Positions 8,537 to 22,277 of a DNA stretch of 23,392 bases are shown here, piece after piece. Every line of letters begins with the position of its first letter. Within the stretch, counting starts at the first letter, position 1. Source of the DNA: a virus. Made by a program: the position numbers and the translations under genes. Under the pieces are notes generated by a model. The model was not told where the DNA came from, made no database searches, and was given only the letters and a program-made list of their open reading frames with translations. The stretch spans positions 1-23,392 of the IMG/VR virus record IMGVR_UViG_3300048586_000908. One strand, written 5' to 3'.

Positions 8537-8851
8537 ATGAGCATCTTCGCGGAGGCGATCGATGACCTCTTCGCCGACCCAAACCTCGCGCGGGATGCCG
8601 TCTGGCGGGCGGGCGGCACGAGCGCACCGGTGACGATGCGGATCGTTCTGCGCCAGCCGGATCGGATCGGAGGCTTCGGCGAGACGCGTTTGCTCGCCGC
8701 CACCACCGTGATCGAGGTGCGCACGGTCGAGACGCCGGAGCTCGCAGAGGGCGATGGTTTCGAGATCGGCGGCGAGACCTTCGTGGTGCAAGGCGAGCCA
8801 GTGCGCGATAGCGAGCGTCTCGTCTGGACGGCGGAGCTGAGGAAAGCATGA
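8537..8851 (+). CDS. Head-tail joining protein, FII-like
   Basis: A 104-residue protein, predicted to be mainly beta-strand after a short N-terminal helix (MSIFAEAIDDLFADPNLARD). A pair of strands (A-T-T-V-I-E-V-R-T-V and D-G-F-E-I-G-G-E-T-F-V-V-Q-G-E-P) and the ending L-V-W-T-A-E-L resemble the small tail-attachment proteins that follow the capsid gene in lambda-like phages (FII family, phage attachment). It would bind the connector after gpW and accept the tail. No FI-like gene lies between it and the capsid. It starts two bases after the capsid stop and overlaps the next gene by four bases (ATGA). The assignment rests on size, fold pattern and position. Confidence 0.68.
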   Translation: MSIFAEAIDDLFADPNLARDAVWRAGGTSAPVTMRIVLRQPDRIGGFGETRLLAATTVIEVRTVETPELAEGDGFEIGGETFVVQGEPVRDSERLVWTAELRKA

Positions 8852-9495
8852 GACTGTCGGCGCAAATCATCGGCGACCTCGGCCGCATCATGGCCGAGGA
8901 GGTCAAGGCGGCCGAAAAGGCTGTCACGGCAGGTGTCGGTGAGGCGGCTGAGGGACTCAAGACCGAGCTCAGAACGCAGATCACCAATGCGGGGCTCGGC
9001 CCTCGGCTGGCGCGCACCTGGCGGTCCGAGACCTTCCCCAAGGGCCAGAACAGCATCCGGGCGGCGGGGCTCGTCTGGTCGAAGGCGCCGGGCATCATTC
9101 GCATTTACGAAGACGGCGCCACCATCCGGTCGACCAAGGGTTTCTTCCTGGCCATTCCGACCGCTGCCGCCGGACGCTTTGGCGACGGTGGCCGCAAGAT
9201 TACGCCCGGCGGATGGGAACGGCGTACCGGGCAGCGGCTGCGCTTCGTCTACCGGCGCAACGCTGCGTCTCTGCTCGTCGCCGACAACATGCGGGCGCGG
9301 ACGGGGAAGCGGGGCGGATACGCCAGAGCCAGTGCCGCCGCTGTGCGCAGCGGGCGCGGCTTGGTGACCGTGCCGATCTTCATTCTGGTGCCGCAGGTGA
9401 CATTCAGGAAGCGGCTCGATGTCGCCTCCGCCGCGAACAGTTGGCAGGAGCGGCTGCCCGGCCTGGTCGTCCGCAACTGGGTCGACGGGCGGTAG
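8848..9495 (+). CDS. DUF6441-like phage protein (minor tail, Z-position)
   Basis: A 215-residue basic protein. The N-terminal helix pair (L-G-R-I-M-A-E-E-V-K-A-A-E-K-A-V-T-A-G) is followed by a G-L-G-P-R-L-A-R-T-W-R-S-E block, a G-L-V-W-S-K-A-P-G-I-I segment, and T-K-G-F-F-L-A-I-P. I recognise the set as a prophage family annotated DUF6441, from memory. It occupies the place of lambda Z, whose product helps complete the tail end that joins the head. The N-terminal layout (helix, then R-T-W-R) is also like HK97 gp10-type tail-completion proteins. The function is inferred from position only. Start and stop overlap the upstream gene as ATGA, so it is translationally coupled. A 94-base non-coding gap follows, the longest in the tail module. 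Confidence 0.65.
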   Translation: MRLSAQIIGDLGRIMAEEVKAAEKAVTAGVGEAAEGLKTELRTQITNAGLGPRLARTWRSETFPKGQNSIRAAGLVWSKAPGIIRIYEDGATIRSTKGFFLAIPTAAAGRFGDGGRKITPGGWERRTGQRLRFVYRRNAASLLVADNMRARTGKRGGYARASAAAVRSGRGLVTVPIFILVPQVTFRKRLDVASAANSWQERLPGLVVRNWVDGR

Positions 9496-10045: not shown

Positions 10046-11317
10046 ATGCCCAAGGTGCGCGCTTACGGCGCGGACGCCACGCTGAAGGCTTGCCGCGAGG
10101 CGAGCTACGGCGTGGCTCCGCTCTCCGGCTATCGAAGCCTCGATTTCAAGTCGACCGATCTCTCTTCGGCGCAGCCGCTCGGGGACGACCCGCTCCTGGG
10201 GCGCGGACGCAACGCGCAGGATCCCTACCGGGGCCTCATCACCGATGAGGGGCAGATCGATATCCCGTTCGATCTGCGCGGCACCGGCTTCTGGCTGACC
10301 GGCCTGTTTGGCGACCCCGTGACGGCGGCGGTCAATGCCTCTGGCTCGATTTCCTTCGCGGCCAATCCCTCGCCCGGGGCGACCATCACGTTGGGTGGCA
10401 CGGTCTGGACGTTCGTCTCCGGGACGCCATCGGGCGACGAGACGGAAATCCAGGCGACGGTCACTCAGACCCTCGATCAACTGGTCAGCGATCTGAATGC
10501 CTCCGCCGATGCGGAGATCGCCAAATGCACCTATTCCCGGCCGACGAGCACCCAGACGCTCGTGATCGTGTTCGACACGGCCGGCCCGACTGGCAACAGC
10601 TTCACCCTTGCAGCATCGGCGGCGAGCGTGTCCGGCCCGACGCTGACCGGTGGCGGCTATGCCCATGTCTGGGAAAGCGGCGCCGACGATATCCCGAGCT
10701 ACACGATCGAGATTGGCCACCCGAAGCTCACGACCCCGGTCTTCTTCCGCCATCTAGGCACGGTGATGGAGAGCCTCAATTTCGAGATGGGTCAGGAGGG
10801 GCCGGCCAATGCCCGCCTGCAGCTGGTGGCGCAGGGCGAGGAACGCTTCGCGGCGACGGTCGACGCCAGCCCGGATGCCTTCTCGCTGCGCCGCTTCAGC
10901 CAAGGGCGCGGCTTCATCCGGCGTGGCGGATCGGCGCTGGCGGGTGTCACCGGCGGCAGTCTCACCTTCTCGAACAATCTCGAACGGGTGCGGGTGATCC
11001 GCGAGGACGGCAAGATCGAGGCGGCCGATCCGACCTTCGCGTCCGCCGAAGGCTCGATGTCGGTACGGTTCGATGGCGCGACGCTGGTCGCCGAGGCCGC
11101 CAATGGCGACCCCGTCGCGCTCGATTACGGCTTCACCTTCCCCGAAGGCTATGCGCTCCGCTTCGAGCTGCCGCGCGTCTTCCTGCCAAAACCCAAATAC
11201 GCCGTCTCCGGCCCCGGCGGGGTCGAGGCGAGCTTCGACTGGCGCGCCGCCTTCGATGACAGCGAGGGCACCATGCTGCGCGCCCATCTCCTGAACGACG
11301 TCACCAGCTACGCATGA
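10046..11317 (+). CDS. Major tail tube protein with an inserted domain
   Basis: A 423-residue protein at the lambda V position. The N-terminus (M-P-K-V-R-A-Y-G-A-D-A-T-L-K-A-C-R-E) and the L-T-D-E-G-Q-I-D-type segment (about 70-80) join to F-W-L-T-G-L-F-G (about 88). The matching core resumes with H-V-W-E-S-G (about 205), S-Y-T-I-E-I-G-H-P-K, and the C-terminal half. Between them, residues about 95-205 form an inserted beta-rich unit (A-T-I-T-L-G-G-T-V-W-T-F-V-S-G, A-T-V-T-Q-T-L-D-Q-L-V-S-D-L-N-A-S-A-D-A, then T-A-G-P-T-G-N-S-F-T-L-A), a module I recall from several phage structural proteins. Tube subunits stack as hexamers, so such an insert would point outward from the tail. The start has a usable AGGAG about nine bases upstream. 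Confidence 0.82.
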   Translation: MPKVRAYGADATLKACREASYGVAPLSGYRSLDFKSTDLSSAQPLGDDPLLGRGRNAQDPYRGLITDEGQIDIPFDLRGTGFWLTGLFGDPVTAAVNASGSISFAANPSPGATITLGGTVWTFVSGTPSGDETEIQATVTQTLDQLVSDLNASADAEIAKCTYSRPTSTQTLVIVFDTAGPTGNSFTLAASAASVSGPTLTGGGYAHVWESGADDIPSYTIEIGHPKLTTPVFFRHLGTVMESLNFEMGQEGPANARLQLVAQGEERFAATVDASPDAFSLRRFSQGRGFIRRGGSALAGVTGGSLTFSNNLERVRVIREDGKIEAADPTFASAEGSMSVRFDGATLVAEAANGDPVALDYGFTFPEGYALRFELPRVFLPKPKYAVSGPGGVEASFDWRAAFDDSEGTMLRAHLLNDVTSYA

Positions 11318-11327
11318 GGATGCATCC

Positions 11328-11765
11328 ATGATCCGTCTCGAACTCTCCCGCGAGCCGCGCTGGCTCGATCTCGGCCACGGCGTGCGCCTGCACGTCGGTC
11401 CGCTCACGACATCCTTGATGGCGGCGGCGCGCAGCGATCCGATCGTCACCAGCCTGCCCGAAGGAGCTTCGAACGAGACCATTGCGGTCGCCATGGCCAA
11501 GGCGCTGGCGCGGCTCGTGGTCGAGGACTGGGAGGGCGTCGGCGATGCCGACGGCAATCCCGTGCCGGTCACGCCGGAAGGGATCGATGCGCTGCTCGAT
11601 ATCCTGCCGCTCTTTGAAGCCTTCCAGCTGCGCTACGTCTCGAAGGGTCTGCTGCTGGAAGCGGAAAAAAACGACTCCGCGCCCTTGCCGAGTGGCATTT
11701 CAGCGGGGGCGACCGGTATTGCCGATCCTGCCGCGGCATCTGCGGCGAATGCCCATCCGTCCTGA
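11328..11765 (+). CDS. Tail assembly chaperone, short form (gpG-like)
   Basis: A 145-residue protein starting MIRLELSREPRWLDLGHGVR, predicted helical in the centre (AIAVAMAKALARLVVEDWEG, then a helix ending in Y-V-S-K-G-L-L-L-E-A-E-K-N-D). It sits between tail tube and tape measure, the place of the lambda G/T pair. By analogy it would coat the tape measure protein and guide tube polymerisation, and not be part of the finished tail. The last 30 residues after the E-A-E-K-N-D segment are low-complexity Ala/Ser/Gly, as if this end is unconstrained. The mRNA at that segment is the slippery heptamer described separately. The ATG at 11328 has GAGG nearby. Confidence 0.8.
   Translation: MIRLELSREPRWLDLGHGVRLHVGPLTTSLMAAARSDPIVTSLPEGASNETIAVAMAKALARLVVEDWEGVGDADGNPVPVTPEGIDALLDILPLFEAFQLRYVSKGLLLEAEKNDSAPLPSGISAGATGIADPAAASAANAHPS
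11666..11672 (+). promoter_or_regulatory. Programmed -1 ribosomal frameshift site A AAA AAC
   Basis: Codons 113-115 of the chaperone gene are GAA AAA AAC. This places the heptamer A AAA AAC in exactly the X XXY YYZ phase that allows tandem slippage by one base. After the shift the frame is open for 107 codons to a TGA at 11993-11995, well past the zero-frame stop at 11765. Lambda G-T uses the same strategy with a GGGAAAG heptamer. A possible stimulatory fold begins seven bases downstream: CGCCC (11680-11684) can pair with GGGCG (11707-11711), enclosing TGCC-GAGT-GGCA (11686-11697). Confidence 0.85.
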
Positions 11766-11995
11766 ACCGCCCCGTAACAATTGAGGGCTGGCAGGTCTGG
11801 GATCTGGCCCTGCGGCTTACAGGCCAACTGCGCGTCATCCCCGGCGCAGTCCTGGGGCTCGACATGAATGCGGCCCTCGCGATGGCCGAGGCGCTCGGGC
11901 TCAACACACTCATCTGCGCGGAGCTCTTGCCGGACATCGAGGCAATGATGGTGCGCGGCCTCAATGCGCAAATGAAGGCTGAACACGATGGCTGA
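11672..11995 (+). CDS. -1 frame extension of the chaperone (gpGT-like)
   Basis: This frame has no start near its 5' end and is read as the C-terminal part of a 222-residue fusion: 115 codons from 11328, then 107 codons in the -1 frame. It encodes a segment with four cysteines in a C-x2-C-x3-C-x2-C array (Y-C-R-S-C-R-G-I-C-G-E-C) directly after the junction. A conserved-looking domain follows: T-I-E-G-W-Q-V-W-D-L-A-L-R-L, G-Q-L-R-V-I-P-G-A-V-L-G-L-D-M-N-A-A-L-A-M-A-E-A, and A-E-L-L-P-D-I-E-A-M-M-V-R. Related downstream frames are usually listed as separate hypothetical phage proteins (I recall DUF7697). By analogy with lambda gpGT the extension binds the tube protein while the G part binds the tape measure. 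It overlaps the tape measure start by eight bases. Confidence 0.82.
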   Translation, partial: RLRALAEWHFSGGDRYCRSCRGICGECPSVLNRPVTIEGWQVWDLALRLTGQLRVIPGAVLGLDMNAALAMAEALGLNTLICAELLPDIEAMMVRGLNAQMKAEHDG

Positions 11996-14483
11996 GAAAA
12001 GGGTGTCGGTGCGCCTTGCCGTCGTCGGCGGCCGCGAGGTTCGCGCCGAGCTGCAGGGCATCGGCGATGCGGGTGAACAGGGCATGCGGCGCCTCTCCCG
12101 CGAAATGGATGCGGCGAACACGCGCGTCGCCGCCTTCTATCGCCGGGTTCAGATAGCAGCGGCTGCTGCTGCAGCAGCGTTTGCAGCGGGTGCGGCGGCG
12201 ATGATCCGCTCCGGCCTGCAGGTGATCGACAACCAAGCCAAGCTCGCGGCTTCGCTCGGCACGACGGTCGAGAGTATCCAGGTGCTGGAGCGCGCCGGTG
12301 ATCTCGCCGGCGTCTCCATGGGCGAGATCGAACAGGCGACTATCCAGCTGACCCGGCGCCTGAGCCAGGCAGCAGCCGGAACCGGAGCCGCGGTCGGCGC
12401 GCTCGAACGTCTCAGGCTGACCTCTCAGGAACTGCAGCGCCTTCCCCTCGACCAGCGCATCGCCGCCATCCAGGAGGCTCTCGCCCGCTACGTGCCTGAG
12501 GCCGAGCGTGCGGCGGTTGCCTCCCAGCTCTTCGGCGATCGCGCCGCGCTCACCTTCCTGCGCATCGACACGGCGACGCTCAGGACGGCGACGCAGGACG
12601 TGCGGGACTTCGGGGTGGTGGTGTCGCAACAGGACGCGGCGCAGATCGAGCGCACCAATGACGCTCTCTCCCGGCTCGGACTGATCTGGCGTGGGGTCTC
12701 GAACCAGCTGGCGGTCGCCGCAGCGCCCGCCTTGGAAGCCGTTGCGGACGCGCTCGCTGCCATGGCGCGCGCCACCGGGCCGCTCGGGCAGGCCATTCGG
12801 CTTCTATTCGACAATCTCGGACGGCTTGCCTCGATCGCCACCGCCTTCGTCGGGCTCATGGCCGGGCGCTTCGTCGCCAGCATGGTGGTGGCCGCGGTCT
12901 CGGTGCGTGGTCTTGCCACTGCGCTCGTTTTCCTGCGCGGGGCGATCATCCGCACCGGGATCGGCGCGCTGGTCGTGGCGGCGGGTGAGTTGATCTATCA
13001 GTTCGGGCGGCTCGTGCAGGCGACTGGCGGCTTCGGCGCGGCGCTCAATCTGCTGGGCGATGTGGCGCGGGAGGTCTGGGACCGGATCGGCCTGCTCGTC
13101 GAGGTGCTGAAGAACCGGATCGCCGCAGCCTGGCTCGGCATTCAGGCGAACGTCGCCGACGCGCTGCAGGGCGCCCTCGATGCCGTCATCGCTTTCGGCA
13201 ATCGGACCGTCAACGTCTTCCAGGGCGCGTTCGACGCCATGGTGGCGATCTGGGGTCGACTGCCGGCAGCGATCGGCGACTTTGCCATTCGGGCGGCCAA
13301 TGCGCTGATCGCCGCCGTCGAATGGATGCTGAACGGCGCCACGCGCGGCATCAACGGCCTGGTTCAGGGGATTGGCGCCGCGCTTTCAGCGATCGGCATC
13401 GAGACCGAAATCAGACTCGTTCCGGATATCGATCTTGGCCGGATCGAGAACCAGTTCGCGGGCGCCGCCGAAGGCGCTGGCGCGGCTGCGCGCGACGCCT
13501 TTGCAGCCGCCTTCGAGACCGATGCATTTCGCGTTCCGGATCTCGGGTTCTCCGCCTTCGCGGAGGATGCCCGTCGCGCCGCCGAGAGCGCCCGCGAAAC
13601 CGCGAATGCCCTTGGTGAACTTGCTGGCGCGCCGCTGGAGTCGGTCGCCGCGCTCCGTGAGGCGATGTCCGGGGCGAACACCCAGATCGATGAGGCTGCC
13701 GCGGCGACGGAGCGGCTCGACACGGCGTTCGGCGCGATCGGTGGCGGCAGTGGCGATGAGGCAGGTGATGGCGCGGGCGCCAGAGGCTCGGCCGGACGTG
13801 CCGCTGCAGCCAGCCGCGAAGCCGGCCGGGAAATCAAGGCGGCGGCTGACGAGGCCGCAACGGGCTGGGCCGCCGTCAGGGACGAGCTCGCGCGCTATGC
13901 CGAGGAAGCCGCGAATTGGGGCAAGGGCCTCGGCAATGCGCTCACCAGCGCGTTCCGGTCGGCCGAAGACGCTGTCGCCAAGTTCGTGACGACCGGCAAA
14001 TTCGACTTCAAGGCGCTCGCCGATAGCATCCTGGCAGACATCACCCGCATCGCGTTGCGCTCGGCGATCCTTGGGCCGCTTGCGAACGCGCTCGGCGGCG
14101 TGGGTGGCGGCGGCGGGATCTTCGGCAATCTGTTCGGCGGGGGCGGCGGCATCCTGTCGGGCATCTTCCACGCGGGCGGCATCGTCGGCGCGCCGGCTCC
14201 GCAGCGGCTCGTACCGGCGCTCGCCTTTGCCGGTGCGCCACGCCTGCATGGCGGCGGCATGGCGGGTCTTCGTCCCGACGAGGTGCCCGCCATCCTGCAG
14301 CGGGGCGAGATGGTGCTGTCGCGCTCCCAGCTCGCAGCGATGGGCTCGGCCCGCGACACGCGCCCTCCCGTCAATGTGGTGATGAACATCTCGACACCCG
14401 ACGCGAACAGCTTCCGCTACGCGCAAGGCCAGATCGCGGCGGACGCCGCCCGCGCCATGGAACGAGCGCGGCGTAATCTCTGA
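11988..14483 (+). CDS. Tail tape measure protein, lambda-type
   Basis: An 831-residue protein. It has a short N-terminal unit with A-E-L-Q-G-I-G-D-A-G and a coiled R-L-S-R-E-M-D-A-A-N segment, then an Ala run (about residues 57-72). A long helical body includes a hydrophobic stretch of likely membrane-inserting segments (about 280-345). The C-terminal domain typical of lambda-type tape measures is marked by W-G-K-G-L-G-N-A-L-T-S-A-F, F-D-F-K-A-L-A-D-S-I-L-A-D-I-T-R-I and a Gly-rich loop. The closing blocks F-H-A-G-G-I-V-G, H-G-G-G-M-A-G-L-R-P-D-E-V-P-A-I-L-Q-R-G-E and S-R-S-Q-L are widespread in the family. The length sets the tail length. Lambda H has 853 residues and a tail near 135 nm, so a similar tail is expected. 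The ATG at 11988 overlaps the preceding stop, so translation is coupled. Confidence 0.93.
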   Translation: MAEKRVSVRLAVVGGREVRAELQGIGDAGEQGMRRLSREMDAANTRVAAFYRRVQIAAAAAAAAFAAGAAAMIRSGLQVIDNQAKLAASLGTTVESIQVLERAGDLAGVSMGEIEQATIQLTRRLSQAAAGTGAAVGALERLRLTSQELQRLPLDQRIAAIQEALARYVPEAERAAVASQLFGDRAALTFLRIDTATLRTATQDVRDFGVVVSQQDAAQIERTNDALSRLGLIWRGVSNQLAVAAAPALEAVADALAAMARATGPLGQAIRLLFDNLGRLASIATAFVGLMAGRFVASMVVAAVSVRGLATALVFLRGAIIRTGIGALVVAAGELIYQFGRLVQATGGFGAALNLLGDVAREVWDRIGLLVEVLKNRIAAAWLGIQANVADALQGALDAVIAFGNRTVNVFQGAFDAMVAIWGRLPAAIGDFAIRAANALIAAVEWMLNGATRGINGLVQGIGAALSAIGIETEIRLVPDIDLGRIENQFAGAAEGAGAAARDAFAAAFETDAFRVPDLGFSAFAEDARRAAESARETANALGELAGAPLESVAALREAMSGANTQIDEAAAATERLDTAFGAIGGGSGDEAGDGAGARGSAGRAAAASREAGREIKAAADEAATGWAAVRDELARYAEEAANWGKGLGNALTSAFRSAEDAVAKFVTTGKFDFKALADSILADITRIALRSAILGPLANALGGVGGGGGIFGNLFGGGGGILSGIFHAGGIVGAPAPQRLVPALAFAGAPRLHGGGMAGLRPDEVPAILQRGEMVLSRSQLAAMGSARDTRPPVNVVMNISTPDANSFRYAQGQIAADAARAMERARRNL

Positions 14484-14494
14484 CGGGTCGACAG

Positions 14495-15097
14495 ATGAGT
14501 GGATTTCACGAGGTGCAGTTCCCGCCCGACATCTCCTACGGGGCGTCGGGCGGACCGGGATATTCGACGACCGTGGTGACGACCGTGTCGGGGCACGAGC
14601 GCCGCAATGCCAACTGGGCCGCCGCGCGAGGCAAATGGAACGTCGCGCATGGCCTCAAGAAGCGCGAGCAGGTCGCGGCGCTGATCGCCTTCTTCCGCGC
14701 CCGCAAGGGCCGCGCCTATGGCTTCCGCTTCAAGGACTGGACCGACTACCAGGCGTTCGCGCAGGTGCTGGGCATCGGCGATGGCGCCAACAAGACCTTC
14801 CAGCTCGTCAGGCGCTATGCGAGCGGCGGCGAGATCGAGAGCCGCATCATCGCCAAGCCGGTTCCTGGCACGGTCAAGATCTACCGCGACGGCGTCGAGG
14901 CGGTCACGGGCTGGACGGTGAACACGGCGACAGGGCTCGTGACCTTCACGACCGCGCCGGCGTCCGGCGTTCAGGTGACGGCGGATTTCGAGTTCGACGT
15001 GCCGGTTCGCTTCGACAGCGATCAGATGGACATCACCATCGAGACCTATCAGCTCGGCAGCTGGGGCCAGATCCCGGTGCTGGAGATCCGCCCATGA
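14495..15097 (+). CDS. DUF2460 distal tail protein (GTA orfg12-like)
   Basis: A 200-residue protein starting MSGFHEVQFPPDISYGASGG, with P-G-Y-S-T-T-V-V-T-T-V-S-G-H-E-R-R-N, W-A-A-A-R-G-K-W-N-V-A-H-G and F-F-R-A-R-K-G-R-A-Y-G-F-R-F-K-D-W-T-D-Y. These are the signature blocks of the DUF2460 family, known as gene 12 in the Rhodobacter capsulatus gene transfer agent. There the product forms the distal tail ring between the tube and the baseplate hub. The C-terminal half (A-T-G-L-V-T-F-T-T-A-P-A-S-G-V, F-E-F-D-V-P-V-R-F-D) is the usual beta domain. It starts 11 bases after the tape measure stop without a strong Shine-Dalgarno and overlaps the next gene as ATGA. Confidence 0.92.
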   Translation: MSGFHEVQFPPDISYGASGGPGYSTTVVTTVSGHERRNANWAAARGKWNVAHGLKKREQVAALIAFFRARKGRAYGFRFKDWTDYQAFAQVLGIGDGANKTFQLVRRYASGGEIESRIIAKPVPGTVKIYRDGVEAVTGWTVNTATGLVTFTTAPASGVQVTADFEFDVPVRFDSDQMDITIETYQLGSWGQIPVLEIRP

Positions 15098-16674
15098 AGT
15101 CAACATCGACAGCGCTCGCCACCCACCTGGCGGGGCCGGTGACCACGCTCGCCACCTGCTGGCGCATCACGCGCATCGACGGGCGCGAGTTCTTCTTTAC
15201 CGATCACGATCGCGACCTCGTCTTCGATGGCGATCTCTACAAGGCGAGCTCCGGCTATTCGCGCACGGCGATCGCCAATGATGCGAGCCTCAGCGTCGAC
15301 AATCTCGACGTAGAGGGCGTGTTCGATGACGAGGCCATCACCGAGGAGGAGCTGCGCGCGGGTCTCTTTGATCAGGCGGAGGTGCGCATCTTCCTAGTCA
15401 ACTGGGCCGATCCTTCGATGGGCGCGCTTCGCATGCGGCGCGGCTGGTTTGGCGAGGTGGTGCTGACCGAGCAAGGCGTTTTCCGCACAGAGCTGCGCGG
15501 CATGACGCAGGCGCTCTCCCAGCGCATCGGCGAGCTTTACAGCCCGGAATGCCGCGCCGATCTCGGCGACCCGCGTTGCAAGGTGCCGATCCACCCGCCC
15601 GAGATCCAGCGTTCGACGTCCTATGCCGTCGGCGACACCGTCCGAATACGAACCTCATCGGCGCTCACGACGATCGGCATTCCCTTCGTCAATCCCGGCT
15701 TCGACGCAGGCAATCTCTCTGGCTGGACCGTCGCCTCCGGTTCGGCAGCCGCCAAGACCGCGAGCGGAACGCTTGGGCCGAAGACCGGCACGCATTTTCT
15801 CGAAGGCGGCAATGTCGCGAGCTTCGAGCTGCGTCAGACCGTAGATCTCTCCCATGTTCTCGATGAGCCCATCCTCGATGCCGGCGACTACCGCCTGACC
15901 GTGGGCGGCTGGCGGGCCAATGGCGGCGGCAACACCGTCGATCAGGGACGGCTGCGCGTGCAGTTGCTCGATGAATTGGGCGCTGTGCTGGCCACACCGC
16001 TCGACACCGGCAATGAGGCGACGACCGGCCTCTGGACGCTCCGCCAGGTCGCCGACGCGCTGGTTCCCTCGGGCACCCGGCAGCTGCGCGTGATCTTCAA
16101 CGGCACGAGGGTCAGCGGCTCGGTGTGCAATGCCGCGCTCGACGCCGTCAGCGGCTTCTTCACCGACACGACGACAGGCGTCGGCACAGCGACCGTGTTT
16201 GAGAATCGCGTCTACCGCTGCGTCGGTGCGGGTACGACGGCTGCTGACCAGCCAGCCTATGACACTTCCGTCGGCCAGCAGACCACCGACGGAACGGCCG
16301 TGTTTGAGGCCATGGAGTCCTGGAGTCGGGCCGGGATCGTCACCGATGTCGTCGACCGGGCGGTGTTCACGGCATCGGTCGACGAGTCCCGCGCGACCGA
16401 CGGCTGGTTCGCCGGCGGCGTGCTGGCCTGGGAGAGCGGGCCGAATGCCGGACGCTCGATCGAAGTGAAGGCGTGGACCCAAGCAACGGGCCGCGCCGAG
16501 CTGTTCCTGCCCATGGGCTATGCGATCCGGGTCGGCGACCTCTTCCGCATCCATCCCGGCTGCGACAAGCGCCTCGACACCTGCATCGCCCGCTTTGCCA
16601 ACGTCCTCAACTTCCGCGGCGAGCCCTACGTGCCGGGGCAGGACGCCATGATGAGCTATCCCGATGCCCGCTGA
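15094..16674 (+). CDS. DUF2163 baseplate hub protein (GTA orfg13-like), enlarged
   Basis: A 526-residue protein. The N-terminal 190 residues are the DUF2163 hub domain (L-A-T-H-L-A-G-P-V-T-T-L-A-T-C-W-R-I, F-T-D-H-D-R-D-L-V, A-S-S-G-Y-S-R-T-A-I, W-F-G-E-V-V-L, with Cys in S-P-E-C-R-A-D-L-G-D-P-R-C). The family C-terminus (G-C-D-K-R-L-D-T-C about residue 488, F-A-N-V-L-N-F-R-G-E-P-Y-V-P-G) closes it. Usual members have about 290-300 residues. The surplus lies between about 196 and 400: a galactose-binding-like beta unit (N-P-G-F-D-A-G-N-L-S-G-W-T-V-A-S) and a short chitin/sugar-binding-like motif (R-V-Y-R-C-V-G-A-G-T-T-A, D-G-T-A-V-F-E-A, about 368-410). In gene transfer agents the hub carries iron-sulfur-type cysteine pairs. 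The start at 15094 overlaps the previous stop. Confidence 0.9.
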   Translation: MKSTSTALATHLAGPVTTLATCWRITRIDGREFFFTDHDRDLVFDGDLYKASSGYSRTAIANDASLSVDNLDVEGVFDDEAITEEELRAGLFDQAEVRIFLVNWADPSMGALRMRRGWFGEVVLTEQGVFRTELRGMTQALSQRIGELYSPECRADLGDPRCKVPIHPPEIQRSTSYAVGDTVRIRTSSALTTIGIPFVNPGFDAGNLSGWTVASGSAAAKTASGTLGPKTGTHFLEGGNVASFELRQTVDLSHVLDEPILDAGDYRLTVGGWRANGGGNTVDQGRLRVQLLDELGAVLATPLDTGNEATTGLWTLRQVADALVPSGTRQLRVIFNGTRVSGSVCNAALDAVSGFFTDTTTGVGTATVFENRVYRCVGAGTTAADQPAYDTSVGQQTTDGTAVFEAMESWSRAGIVTDVVDRAVFTASVDESRATDGWFAGGVLAWESGPNAGRSIEVKAWTQATGRAELFLPMGYAIRVGDLFRIHPGCDKRLDTCIARFANVLNFRGEPYVPGQDAMMSYPDAR

Positions 16675-17113
16675 GATCATTACCCCTGAGGCCGTCACAC
16701 CCGAGGCGGTCGTCACCGATGCCCGCGGCTGGCTTGGCGTTCCCTGGCGGCATCAGGGGCGCACGCGTTCGGGCATCGACTGCGTCGGGCTGGTGGTCTG
16801 CGTCGCCCGGGCGCTCGATCTCTCGGACTATGACAGCACCGGCTACAGCCGCCGCGCTCAGGGACAGGGTTTCGTCGAACATTTCCGGGGCAACATGGAC
16901 GGCGTGGCCATCCCGGAGGCCCAGCCCGGTGACGTGCTCGTCTTCGCCGATCAGGCCTATCCCTGCCACTGCGGCTTCCTGACCGAGCGGCTCGGCCATC
17001 CCCATCTGCTGCACGCCCATGCGACCCGCAGGCAGGTCATCGAAGAGCCCTATGCCGGCGAGTGGCCGGCCAAGGTCAAATTCGCCTTTCGCTTTCGCTC
17101 TCCCGGACACTGA
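16664..17113 (+). CDS. NlpC/P60 tail peptidase (GTA orfg14-like)
   Basis: A 149-residue cysteine peptidase of the NlpC/P60 family in the tail-assembly position, comparable to lambda K and GTA gene 14. Catalytic residues are Cys40 in G-I-D-C-V-G-L-V, His102 in C-H-C-G-F-L and a third polar residue at His117 or His119 in L-L-H-A-H-A. The W-L-G-V-P-W-R-H-Q-G block precedes the cysteine as usual. Members cut the peptide of peptidoglycan to let the tail tip through the wall during DNA entry. The ATG at 16664 lies 11 bases inside the hub gene, so expression is coupled. The tip protein gene follows after six bases. Length is normal for the tail subtype. Confidence 0.93.
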   Translation: MPAEIITPEAVTPEAVVTDARGWLGVPWRHQGRTRSGIDCVGLVVCVARALDLSDYDSTGYSRRAQGQGFVEHFRGNMDGVAIPEAQPGDVLVFADQAYPCHCGFLTERLGHPHLLHAHATRRQVIEEPYAGEWPAKVKFAFRFRSPGH

Positions 17114-17119
17114 ACTCTC

Positions 17120-20100
17120 ATGGCCATCCTCGTCGCAGTAGGCGGGGCCGCGCTCGGCTCCGCCGTCGGTCTCGGCTGGCAGGCAGGCTGGCTGGTGGGC
17201 TCCGTCGTCGGCAGCCTGCTGTTTCCCGCCAAGGGGCAGAACGTCACCACCGAGGGTCCGCGGCTGGGCGATCTGACCGTCTCGTCCTCCGCCTACGGCG
17301 CATCGATCCCGATCGGCTACGGCACGCTGCGCATGGCCGGCAACATGATCTGGTCGTCGGGCATTCGCGAACAGCAGAACGTCACCCGCACCCGATCCGG
17401 CGGCAAGGGCGGCGGCGGGCGCAGCACCCAGACCTCGATCAGCTATTCCTATTTTGCGTCTTTCGCGCTGAGCTTCGGTGAGGGCCCAGCCGAGGACGTG
17501 CTGCGCATCTGGGCCGACGGCAAGCTGATCTACGACAAGACCGGTTCGAGCCCGGACGTGGCCAAGCCAAACCTGCGCTTTCGTTTTCATCGCGGCAGCG
17601 ATGCCCAATTGCCCGACCCGCTGATCGAAGCTCATGTGGGCGCCGGTCGCGCACCGGCCCATCGCGGCCTCTGCGTCATCGTCTTCGAGGATCTGGCGCT
17701 CGCCGACTTCGGCAACCGCATCCCGAACATCACGGCGGAGATCACCTATCGGCGCGCCGCGCAGCAGCCCTATCAGCTCCTGGACTTCATCACGACGGGC
17801 GAAGGCGGCTATTTCGGGTCCTACCAGATCAGCGACCTCGCGGTCGATTGGCGGCGCGGCTACGGCTACTTCGTCTCGTCGAGCAGCAACGCCGAAGCCG
17901 CCGGTATCCGCCGCTTCAATCTTCGCACCATGGCGGAAGACCGCCAGGCGCGGATGACCGATGTGGCCGCCGCCACGCCCAACAATTTCCCGAGCACGCT
18001 GTTCTGCGGCGAGGACGGTCACCTTTACCTGACCGTCGGCTCGGGCAACTCGCGGCCGATCATCCGGGGCGAGCCGAATGCGCTGAAGGAAGTGGGCCGC
18101 TTCGGCTTCACCAGCACCGGCCTTTCCAACACCACGACCCGCTTCGTGACGACGACCTGGTTGGGCATGATCTCGGCCTACGGGCAATCCGGTCGGGTCG
18201 ATTTTCTGCTGACCGGCTCGCTCTTCAACGACATTGGCCTGCTGCACGCCGACAGCATGGGCTACGTCTGGGGCGCCGGCCAGACGGTGACGGAATCGCG
18301 CGTTCGGGGCGCAATCGGCGGCGCCGTCGGCGAGGGTTATGGCGATGGCTGGATTCTGGCGAGCGCGACATCGAGCAGTCTGAACCACACCAGCCTCGGG
18401 CTCTACCGCATCCGGGTTTCAGCCTTCGCGCAGTATGACAGTCTCACCGGCCAATCGCTCGGCGTCACGTTCGAAAAAGTGGCGAGCTTCACGCCTGCGC
18501 AGATCGAAGCTGGCGCGACGGGGTTCTACAGCGATGCGGGCGGACTGACCTACGACGCCACCGACGACAGCGTCATCTTCCAGATCACGATGTCGAACGG
18601 CGGCTCGGCCGGTACGATCTATGCGATCAAGTGGCGCGCCGACACCGGGATCGTCTGGAAGACGGCCGTCCCGCACAAGATCAACTACGAGGGCCCGTTC
18701 TTCGGCCAGAGCCGCTTGCGGGGCCAGCGCTGGACGCTGATGCGCTCGACGCGCGTCGTCCAGCTCGACACGGCGACGGGCGCCATCGTGCTCAACGAGA
18801 TCTGGCCGGGCGCGGTCAGTGAACAGGGCGCACAGGTCTACGACGCCGTCACCGACACCCATCTGGTGCGCGGCAGCAGCGGGTGGGCCCGGCTGTTCCT
18901 CAATCGCGGCGGTGGCGAGGGCGAGGCGCTGTCATCCATCGTCGCCGATCTCTGCGGACGCGCCGGCCTCGGGCTCGCCGACATTGACGTCGCCGAGCTC
19001 ACGCCATCCGTGCCCGGCTATGTGATTGGCCGGCAGACCACCGTGCGCGGCGCGATCGAGCCGCTGGCGCAGGCCTATTTCTTCGACGCCGCCGAAAGCG
19101 ACGACACGCTTCGCTTCCGAAATCGCGGGCGCGCGCCGGTCGCCACGATCCCGGCCGAATACCTTGTGCCGCTCGACAGCCAGACGGGCGAAAGCTGGCG
19201 CGAGCGCCGCACGCAGGAAGTCGAGCTGCCCGAGCGCGTCGCCGTCGTCTACATGGACCGCGACGCCGACTATCAGCAAGGCACGCAGAGCGAGAAGCGG
19301 GCATCACTGCCGCTGCCCACCATGCATTCGCGCAACCAGGCGAGCCTTGAGCTCGCGCTCGCCATCGACGCCACAACGGCCAAGCGAATCGCCGCCAAGA
19401 CCCTCTTCAGCGCCTGGATCGAGCGCAGCGCCTACGAAGCCGAACTGCCGCCAGACTGGCTCCGGCTCGATCCGACCGATGTGGTGGATGTGGTGTTCGC
19501 CACTGGTTCGACCTTCCGGACGCGGATCAACCGTCTCGACGTCGGCGCGGATTTCTCGCTCGCGGTGAAGGGCGTCTCGGAGACCGCCGCCACCTATGTC
19601 TCCTCGGTCATTGCCGATGGCGGTTCGGGCAAACCCGTCCAGCTCGTGGGCGCGAACGCCGCCACGCGCCTGATCTTGCCCGACCTGCCGCTCCTGCGCG
19701 ATGTCGATGATGCGGGCGGTGCGGGCTCTCGGGTCTACTATCTGATGGCGGGGTTCGGCGGCCCCGGCTGGCCCGGAGCCGCCCTCTATCGCAGCGCCGA
19801 CGGTTCCGCATGGGCGCAGGTCGGGCGGGCCCTCAGCGAAGCCGCCTGGGGCGCTACGGCGACTGCGCTGGGCAGTCCACGCTCGCCGTTCGGCACCGAC
19901 GAGGAGAACAGCCTCACCGTCTTCATGACCACCGGCGGCGAGCGGTTGGAGAGCGTCACGCAGGAGGCGCTGGTCAATGGCGCCAACGCGGCCCTCGTGC
20001 TGAAGGCCAATGGCGAGCCCGAGATCATCCAATTCCGCGATGTGACGCTGAACCCGGATGGCTCCTACACGCTTAACTGTCTGCTGCGCGGCCGGCGTGG

Positions 20101-20632
20101 AACGGACGTCTTCGTCGAGGGCCATACGGCGGGCGAACTCTTCGCGCTGCTCGATCCTGACGATGTCGAGACGCTGGTCACCGCACTCGGCGATCTCAAT
20201 TTGCCGCGGTCCTGGCGCGCCGTTGGTTTCGGCACGCTGTTCGAGGATGCCGAGACTCTCGTCCAGAGCCACGGCGGCCGCGACCTCAAGCCCTATGCAC
20301 CGTGGAACGTGCGCGCAGCTCCAAGCGGCAGCCCGACGAACATCACGCTCTCCTGGGTTCGTCGCACGCGCATTGGCGGTGAGCTCAAGGATGGGACCGG
20401 CGTGGTGCCGCTCGGCGAGGCGAGCGAGGCCTATGAGATCGACATCCTAGATGGTCCCGGCGGTGCGGTGCTCCGCACGCTCGCCTCCACCAGCCCGAGC
20501 GCCGTCTACGCCAATGCCGACATCCTGGCCGATTTCGGCGTCGTGCCGGCTGCTCTGTCCGTAGCCGTCCATCAAATGAGCGCGGTCGTGGGTCGCGGGT
20601 TTCCGCGCGCCGTCACCTTGGAGGTTACCTGA
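17120..20632 (+). CDS. Tail tip / host specificity protein (GTA orfg15, J-like)
   Basis: A 1170-residue protein. The N-terminus has a Gly/Ala-rich hydrophobic segment (about 3-35), then Y-G-A-S-I-P-I-G-Y-G-T-L-R-M-A-G-N-M-I-W, S-F-A-L-S-F-G-E-G-P-A-E-D-V and I-W-A-D-G-K-L-I-Y, typical of phage tip proteins of the GTA type. Residues about 217-600 hold a long insert of short beta repeats with G-x-Y or D-x-L-Y endings that look like a beta-propeller. A tail-hub domain follows (E-L-P-E-R-V-A-V-V-Y-M-D-R-D-A-D-Y, then D-W-L-R-L-D-P-T-D-V, about 700-790). The C-terminus has a fibronectin-III-like unit (about 1055-1165, with W-N-V-R-A-A-P and I-T-L-S-W). The protein should close the tail and contact the receptor. 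It joins the next gene by a TGATG overlap. Confidence 0.9.
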   Translation: MAILVAVGGAALGSAVGLGWQAGWLVGSVVGSLLFPAKGQNVTTEGPRLGDLTVSSSAYGASIPIGYGTLRMAGNMIWSSGIREQQNVTRTRSGGKGGGGRSTQTSISYSYFASFALSFGEGPAEDVLRIWADGKLIYDKTGSSPDVAKPNLRFRFHRGSDAQLPDPLIEAHVGAGRAPAHRGLCVIVFEDLALADFGNRIPNITAEITYRRAAQQPYQLLDFITTGEGGYFGSYQISDLAVDWRRGYGYFVSSSSNAEAAGIRRFNLRTMAEDRQARMTDVAAATPNNFPSTLFCGEDGHLYLTVGSGNSRPIIRGEPNALKEVGRFGFTSTGLSNTTTRFVTTTWLGMISAYGQSGRVDFLLTGSLFNDIGLLHADSMGYVWGAGQTVTESRVRGAIGGAVGEGYGDGWILASATSSSLNHTSLGLYRIRVSAFAQYDSLTGQSLGVTFEKVASFTPAQIEAGATGFYSDAGGLTYDATDDSVIFQITMSNGGSAGTIYAIKWRADTGIVWKTAVPHKINYEGPFFGQSRLRGQRWTLMRSTRVVQLDTATGAIVLNEIWPGAVSEQGAQVYDAVTDTHLVRGSSGWARLFLNRGGGEGEALSSIVADLCGRAGLGLADIDVAELTPSVPGYVIGRQTTVRGAIEPLAQAYFFDAAESDDTLRFRNRGRAPVATIPAEYLVPLDSQTGESWRERRTQEVELPERVAVVYMDRDADYQQGTQSEKRASLPLPTMHSRNQASLELALAIDATTAKRIAAKTLFSAWIERSAYEAELPPDWLRLDPTDVVDVVFATGSTFRTRINRLDVGADFSLAVKGVSETAATYVSSVIADGGSGKPVQLVGANAATRLILPDLPLLRDVDDAGGAGSRVYYLMAGFGGPGWPGAALYRSADGSAWAQVGRALSEAAWGATATALGSPRSPFGTDEENSLTVFMTTGGERLESVTQEALVNGANAALVLKANGEPEIIQFRDVTLNPDGSYTLNCLLRGRRGTDVFVEGHTAGELFALLDPDDVETLVTALGDLNLPRSWRAVGFGTLFEDAETLVQSHGGRDLKPYAPWNVRAAPSGSPTNITLSWVRRTRIGGELKDGTGVVPLGEASEAYEIDILDGPGGAVLRTLASTSPSAVYANADILADFGVVPAALSVAVHQMSAVVGRGFPRAVTLEVT

Positions 20633-22254: not shown

Positions 22255-22277
22255 CCCGCCCTTCGGCGGGTTTTTTT
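22255..22277 (+). terminator. Strong intrinsic terminator
   Basis: A perfect 6-bp GC stem (CCCGCC 22255-22260, GGCGGG 22265-22270) with a CTTC loop is followed at once by seven T residues (22271-22277). It lies between the DUF6127-like gene and the lysis peptidase. Since the lysis genes lie downstream with no other promoter seen, it may be passed by antitermination, or a promoter may overlap the hairpin. Confidence 0.88.

Follow-up and report, generated by a model that had tools for sequence, protein, structure and literature searches.

Here we describe a site at which a programmed -1 ribosomal frameshift of the lambda G/GT kind very probably takes place, at positions 11666-11672 of a viral DNA. 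The window, by which we mean the whole stretch of DNA analysed (23,392 nucleotides), is a 23.4-kb virus record. The site lies in the gene of a tail assembly chaperone, G, and slippage would join this protein to a conserved domain, T, that is encoded in the -1 frame. The first-pass annotation had proposed that a -1 frameshift joins the chaperone to a downstream domain, and this is still the best explanation because both the heptamer and T are conserved in the 310 distinct relatives among the matches listed.

The window carries lambda-type terminase genes (PF05876, PF20454), followed by genes for a portal (PF05136), an S49 peptidase, a cap_E major capsid protein, the tail tube protein, G, T, a lambda-type tape measure protein and the tail tip. 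The tail tube protein gene (10046-11317, plus strand; PF18906 Phage_tube_2, 5.4e-46) is upstream of G. The tape measure protein gene (11988-14483, plus strand; phrog_8462, 3e-166; PF09718, 9.2e-25) overlaps the end of T by 8 bases. As in lambda-type clusters, the G/GT pair is flanked by the major tail protein gene on one side and the tape measure gene on the other, G belongs to a tail assembly chaperone family (phrog_313, 4.2e-20), and the downstream ORF overlaps G in the -1 frame with the heptamer inside the overlap. The tail-tip genes at 14495-20632 (DUF2460, phiJL001 Gp84/BR0599, NlpC/P60 and Rcc01698_C) are of a kind that we take to be that of gene transfer agents, while the terminase, portal and tape measure genes are lambda-type. 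A DUF3489 gene lies on the minus strand at 513-1058, upstream of the packaging genes. No tRNA genes were found in the window, and 11000-12600 had no DNA-level match in the phages collection.

The slippery heptamer A AAA AAC (11666-11672, plus strand) has the canonical form X XXY YYZ and is in phase with G (11328-11765, plus strand; 145 aa, 15.0 kDa; stop TGA at 11763-11765). In the ORF that begins with the ATG at 11328 it is read as gaA AAA AAC, which encodes E113, K114 and N115. The exact slippery phase within a chaperone gene, as claimed in the first-pass annotation, is thus borne out. So is its description of a -1 frame open for 107 codons with a sensible protein domain: from 11672 there are 107 sense codons before the TGA at 11993-11995, and the product has a confident predicted fold and a match to PF24752. 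The T domain (11672-11995, plus strand) fused to G would give a GT protein of 222 aa and 24.0 kDa. The -1 frame is already open upstream of the slip, from 11618, and its first ATG, GTG or TTG is the ATG at 11864. As there is no earlier start codon, T is absent from the list of ORFs of at least 60 aa, in agreement with the suggestion that it has no usable start near its beginning and would be lost to gene calling.

Counting both strands, the window has two copies of AAAAAAC, the one in G and a minus-strand copy at 22270-22276; shuffled sequence is expected to have 0.25, and 2 of 100 shuffles contain two. A scan for canonical heptamers (X XXY YYZ, with Y being A or T and Z not G) in 22 chosen gene-like ORFs returned four in phase, and just one of these is A AAA AAC, that at 11666-11672. 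A GGGTTTC at 9138, in phase in the gene at 8848-9495 (DUF6441) and followed by a -1 frame open for 200 codons, was considered as a second frameshift candidate and put down to probable chance in GC-rich DNA.

Relatives were gathered from viral contigs (with G or T), from genome contigs (by alignment of T) and from annotated phages. Of 465 loci, 310 were distinct around the site once 152 duplicates, two loci without a T match and one truncated locus were dropped. The loci used were the best 80 of 397, of 90, of at least 577, of at least 581 and of 212 in the respective searches, and the counts of relatives are therefore counts in samples. The set of 244 relatives in which the frame of G was established by homology came from 325 loci less 78 duplicates, two without T and one truncated. 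One peptide pattern of the first relative search spans the heptamer, and the heptamer was for this reason recounted on 271 loci derived with T only, from which 106 duplicates and one locus without full T had been dropped. For 172 clustered relatives, five off-frame loci were excluded and the rest were clustered at 8% difference.

The 80 genome-contig records listed are mainly from Alphaproteobacteria (e.g. Paracoccus, Rhodobacter and relatives, Sphingomonas and Parvibaculum). Other labels among them are two Burkholderiaceae MAGs, one Gammaproteobacteria MAG and one Exiguobacterium MAG. Nostoc phage Nsp-JY21 and Synechococcus phage Sc-Yong805-1 have identical G and T translations despite different cyanobacterial hosts on record. 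Given that the genome-contig relatives are mainly alphaproteobacterial, the true host of these two phages may be a companion bacterium.

The heptamer is near-invariant among the relatives listed, and its conservation in homologues was one of the checks put forward in the first-pass annotation. The string at the slip in the 310 distinct relatives among the matches listed is AAAAAAC in 285, GGGAAAC in 21, AAAAAAA in two, AAAAAAG in one and AAAGAAC (beside N's) in one. The T-derived loci, whose query patterns exclude the heptamer, have AAAAAAC in 250 and GGGAAAC in 19 of 271 among the matches listed. The 0-frame reads E-K-N or E-K-K at the site in 284 of the 310 listed, with GAA AAA as the first two codons in all 284. 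Over the preceding 270 bases of G, taken from 281 loci, Glu is by comparison written GAA at 915 of 1911 codons and Lys AAA at 175 of 602. G is in the heptamer's 0-frame in 239 of the 244 relatives among the matches listed. In the five off-frame relatives the A-run or its immediate flank differs in length by a single base, or there are N's; the length differences may be sequencing errors or real variants. In L218, which belongs to these five, G would be fused to T directly and in frame.

In 64 of the 310 distinct relatives among the matches listed, the stop codon of G begins at the fourth base past the heptamer, so that beyond this stop only T can code. Across T codons 17-53 of 43 clustered early-stop relatives, a set that omits three divergent early-stop loci (L462, L464 and L465), pN/pS is 0.25 in the T frame, 1.36 in the 0-frame and 2.81 in the third frame. 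The T frame is under purifying selection where G has ended.

The first-pass annotation recognised the heptamer and overlooked a second part of the signal, a hairpin downstream. A spacer of 7 nt (11673-11679, plus strand) separates the heptamer from a likely stimulatory hairpin (11680-11711, plus strand) made of a 9-bp stem, in which 11680-11688 (CGCCCTTGC) pairs with 11703-11711 (GCGGGGGCG), and an inner 3-bp stem (11690-11692/11699-11701). Stimulators are placed 5-8 nt downstream of the slip in a passage of PMC4066793. The conserved 9-bp stem falls in this range, whereas the window's minimum-energy fold begins three pairs earlier, with extra basal pairs (11677-11679/11714-11716) that would cut the spacer to 4 nt. 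Compared with dinucleotide shuffles, the window's own hairpin is only moderately better (z -1.87; 8 of 200 shuffles were as good).

The stem is conserved beyond the window. RNAalifold recovered it from 26 diverse relatives minus the C-G pair at columns 25/48, together with the inner 3-bp stem. All nine pairs are complete in 148 of the 172 clustered relatives, at least eight pairs in 162 of them, and all nine again in 247 of the 271 T-derived loci among the matches listed. The pair 11684-11707 is broken in 18 of the 172, and in one locus (L164) the pairing seems by eye to be one base out of register. Rfam models gave nothing near their cut-offs in 11000-12600 (best 16.9 bits against 123), and no paper naming the hairpin was found by title or abstract start in the open-licence literature.

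Given the overlap of G and T, a stem might also be imitated by double coding; the frameshift could then be real while the hairpin is a by-product of two conserved frames rather than a stimulator. We consider this unlikely, although it is the alternative that survives best. Most stem bases are fixed by the T residues A4 L5 A6 and G11 G12 G13, and two-sided covariation is rare, being found at a single pair (C-G to G-C) in three relatives. Two of five covariation measures lie within shuffles, as 155 of 500 shuffles reach the observed number of pairs changed on both sides and 137 of 500 that of further pair types. However, in the early-stop relatives, where T is the sole coding frame, synonymous choices still track the stem. 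The clustered early-stop relatives are mostly one related group, so that their counts are not independent. In them every Gly12 codon of T is GGG (43 of 43, against 113 of 539 in the background) and every Gly13 codon GGC (46 of 46, against 303 of 539). Ala4 always has GCT or GCC (46 of 46, against 199 of 444), and Leu5 always has CTC or CTT, never CTG (43 of 43; background 154 of 541).

Two further results bear on the same question. Randomisation of codons that keeps the T protein gave a mean z of -2.93 for 46 early-stop loci (93% with p<0.05) and of -2.90 for 130 others (87%), the latter with the 0-frame ignored and one of 131 loci skipped. In the divergent early-stop loci L462, L464 and L465, a G-C pair replaces the C-G pair at the base of the stem. 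Taken at the level of sequence, these three results (the codon choice of early-stop loci, the randomisation and the pair swap) argue against double coding as the source of the stem.

A fusion of G and T could also be made without any slip of the ribosome, if RNA polymerase stuttered on the seven A's and left one extra A in some messages. Homopolymer slippage is a known alternative to ribosomal slipping, the run here is A7, and single-base length differences at the A-run are present in a few public sequences. Such transcriptional slippage is nevertheless improbable, and the ribosomal mechanism is favoured over it, because 21 of the 310 listed relatives have GGGAAAC, with a longest run of three, at the same site and with the same kind of T. 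Ribosomal slippage agrees with both the in-phase heptamer and the hairpin that follows it after 7 nt, neither of which is needed for slippage by the polymerase.

The T domain itself has several conserved features. In an alignment of 39 T sequences, W8, F10, G13, C20, C24, C27 and W43 are invariant and C17 is present in at least 90%. Four cysteines (C17, C20, C24 and C27; 11720-11752, plus strand) form CxxC pairs that are conserved, with the pattern shifted in two divergent rows (L456 and L458) and C24 missing in L074. This zinc-knuckle-like motif is a candidate for a zinc-binding knuckle or ribbon. AlphaFold2 models T with a mean pLDDT of 92.4 and a helix from residue 2, and T is thereby predicted as one compact domain that begins at the slip. 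The predicted fold of G is confident to about residue 114, and residues 115-145 have pLDDT below 50. The predicted folds of G and T meet at the slip in these models. The 30-residue tail of G past the slip looks dispensable, since the predicted G fold ends at the slip, and this agrees with the relatives that have no tail.

Comparisons with known structures and families gave little for either protein. G has no Pfam or NCBIfam family match in profile searches and no reliable match among solved structures (Foldseek best E 1.9). T likewise had nothing reliable among solved structures (Foldseek best E 1.9; VIA best Z 3.8 in 225 chains). Its matches among viral protein structures are weak: the best (E 0.032) is an uncharacterised protein, and six of the 50 listed, with E from 0.049 to 2.7, are named tape measure chaperone or tail assembly chaperone. 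A phrog_680 match to T is weak and is seen in 16 of the 39 sequences. The C-terminal half is covered by two families, Pfam DUF7697 (PF24752, 52 positions; T residues 55-106, 11834-11989, plus strand; 2.7e-24, 85.3 bits against a cut-off of 27) and phrog_11212 (55 positions), which match T from residues 55 and 53. Each matches 38 of the 39 aligned sequences, the window included in the case of DUF7697 (E up to 0.01). No paper on DUF7697 was found in the open-licence literature.

T has no conserved start codon. A start between the slip and codon 16 is present in one of the 310 relatives among the matches listed (L328, GTG as codon 2), and its AAAAAAC is intact; with the 90 bases upstream of the slip included, the number is 19 of 310. 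An independent T gene with its own conserved start, which according to the first-pass annotation would, in homologues without the heptamer, speak against a frameshift, was seen in none of the 310 listed, L328 being the nearest to it. In 298 T frames the first start is most often the ATG at codon 65 (42), the GTG at codon 55 (40), the GTG at codon 60 (30) or the TTG at codon 53 (24); 12 of the 310 listed were left out as named phage records, incomplete, outside 95-150 codons or with N.

An alternative is internal initiation, in which T, or just its C-terminal half, would be translated on its own from a rare or internal start codon. The two family matches beginning at residues 55 and 53 could be read in this way, as could the ATG at 11864 and the separate 77-aa CDS annotated from T codon 41 in Nostoc phage Nsp-JY21. 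We hold internal initiation to be very improbable, because the position of the first start varies among the 298 T frames and most of the products would be without the most conserved half of T (W8, F10, C20-C27 and W43), and because a start before codon 16 is so rare among the relatives listed. The annotation of Nsp-JY21 illustrates instead that truncated calls of T do get made. As gene callers cannot start T at the slip, we infer that DUF7697 and phrog_11212 were built from truncated gene calls of the frameshift product. In three plasmid records that encode T relatives there is no annotated feature under the match, and one record is without any annotation.

A chance heptamer in a decayed or overlapping frame without function can be dismissed: GC-rich DNA often has open alternative frames (138 ORFs of at least 60 aa in the window), but the conservation of heptamer and T across the 310 listed relatives, the purifying selection on T and its mean pLDDT of 92.4 leave this a negligible chance.

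Lambda-type frameshifting in tail chaperones is established, reportedly through work by Xu, Hendrix and Duda in 2004, and the lambda G/T heptamer is GGGAAAG. In lambda the tail chaperone has a -1 extension, GT, and binds the tape measure and major tail proteins (excerpt of PMC5009743). The likeness of the window to lambda lies in a chaperone with a -1 extension; the library searches named no lambda G or T match.

The first-pass annotation had also suggested that this precise site may be undescribed for the phage group. This goes too far, as frameshifts of the kind are known nearby. The phiCbK-like Caulobacter phages extend a chaperone that precedes the tape measure (gp93/gp94) by -1 frameshifting at AAAAAAC, and Colossus does so at GGGAAAC, according to part of PMC3556154; their likeness to the window is one of gene and frameshift. 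Closer are the Rhodobacter phages RcKemmy, RcKvothe and relatives (MW677517, OP009275; 11 records). They have homologues of both proteins, at 44.7-47.7% over 86% for G and at 50.5-51.5% over 96% for T. RcKemmy and RcKvothe have the gene order of the window and are annotated with a chaperone CDS and a two-piece CDS. The Rhodobacter phages have a hairpin in the same position as in the window, and RcKemmy and RcKvothe carry GGGAAAC in phase at the place where the window has AAAAAAC. An article on an R. capsulatus phage collection mentions the usual chaperone frameshift signal (excerpt of PMC8601537).

Other systems share some of these features. For the chaperone genes gp12/gp13 of Acinetobacter phage Loki, an AAAAAAC frameshift motif that adjoins the stop of the upstream gene has been proposed (excerpt of PMC5313236). 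The Loki chaperone is among the weak structural matches to T of the window (E 0.42, TMq 0.63, 11% identity). Paenibacillus phage Dragolir possibly uses AAAAAAC (excerpt of PMC6003738). Bacterial IS elements use A AAA AAC for -1 frameshifting as well, with genes unrelated to those of the window, and a proven IS cluster with A AAA AAC is without an established stimulator as far as the excerpted text of PMC4066793 goes. Citromicrobium phage RXM has a weak match to G (E 5e-3) with a product of the same name, and the -1 frame past its GGGAAAC is by eye unlike T of the window. In RXM (1471-2258) the first chaperone gene ends right after the GGGAAAC, and the -1 frame enters a second chaperone that is annotated separately. 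This sequence arrangement makes RXM a likely case of unannotated frameshifting.

Under the frameshift reading, most ribosomes would read G to the stop at 11763-11765 and make the 145-aa tail chaperone. A minority would be held up by the hairpin (11680-11711) while AAA AAC occupies the P and A sites, and both tRNAs would slip back by one base onto AAA AAA. Translation would then resume at CGA 11672 in the T frame and continue to 11995, to give the 222-aa GT. By analogy with lambda, the coat on the tape measure protein would consist of many copies of G and few of GT, with T serving to recruit tail tube subunits, and both G and GT would depart before the tail is completed. At the junction of G and T, the predicted trypsin cut leaves only NR and hence no useful junction peptide; Glu-C should give one.

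How often ribosomes might slip can be gauged from other systems. A AAA AAC and G GGA AAC are both low-efficiency heptamers in E. coli (excerpt of PMC4066793). The lambda ratio is about 30 to 1 according to part of PMC5009743, and reporter measurements put two chaperone genes from an HK97-related cluster at 6% and 7% (excerpt of PMC3711429). A weak heptamer with a hairpin would suit a product that is needed in a small share, as in lambda.

The region is probably a cassette with a dual use. In it a heptamer that is weak in E. coli is nearly always followed after 7 nt by the same hairpin, which lies inside T codons 3 to 14; one set of bases would then spell out both the RNA stimulator and the first helix of T. 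G would either end at the slip or run on, in most cases by some 30 residues; in the window this extension is predicted to be disordered. Since T offers gene callers no start, its N-terminal half, with the cysteine motif, would be missing in the family libraries searched.

The site in the window adds a case to the known lambda-type chaperone frameshifting, in little-described phages of alphaproteobacteria. The frameshift itself will not surprise a specialist; the useful additions are the conserved hairpin and the likely explanation of DUF7697. Relatives in which G stops at the slip separate the constraint on the RNA from double coding, which is usually hard to do. If the families were indeed built from truncated calls, DUF7697 and phrog_11212, both of unknown function, are explained as truncated readings of a frameshift product, and about half of a conserved domain is lost wherever gene calling or a family library leaves the -1 frame out of account.
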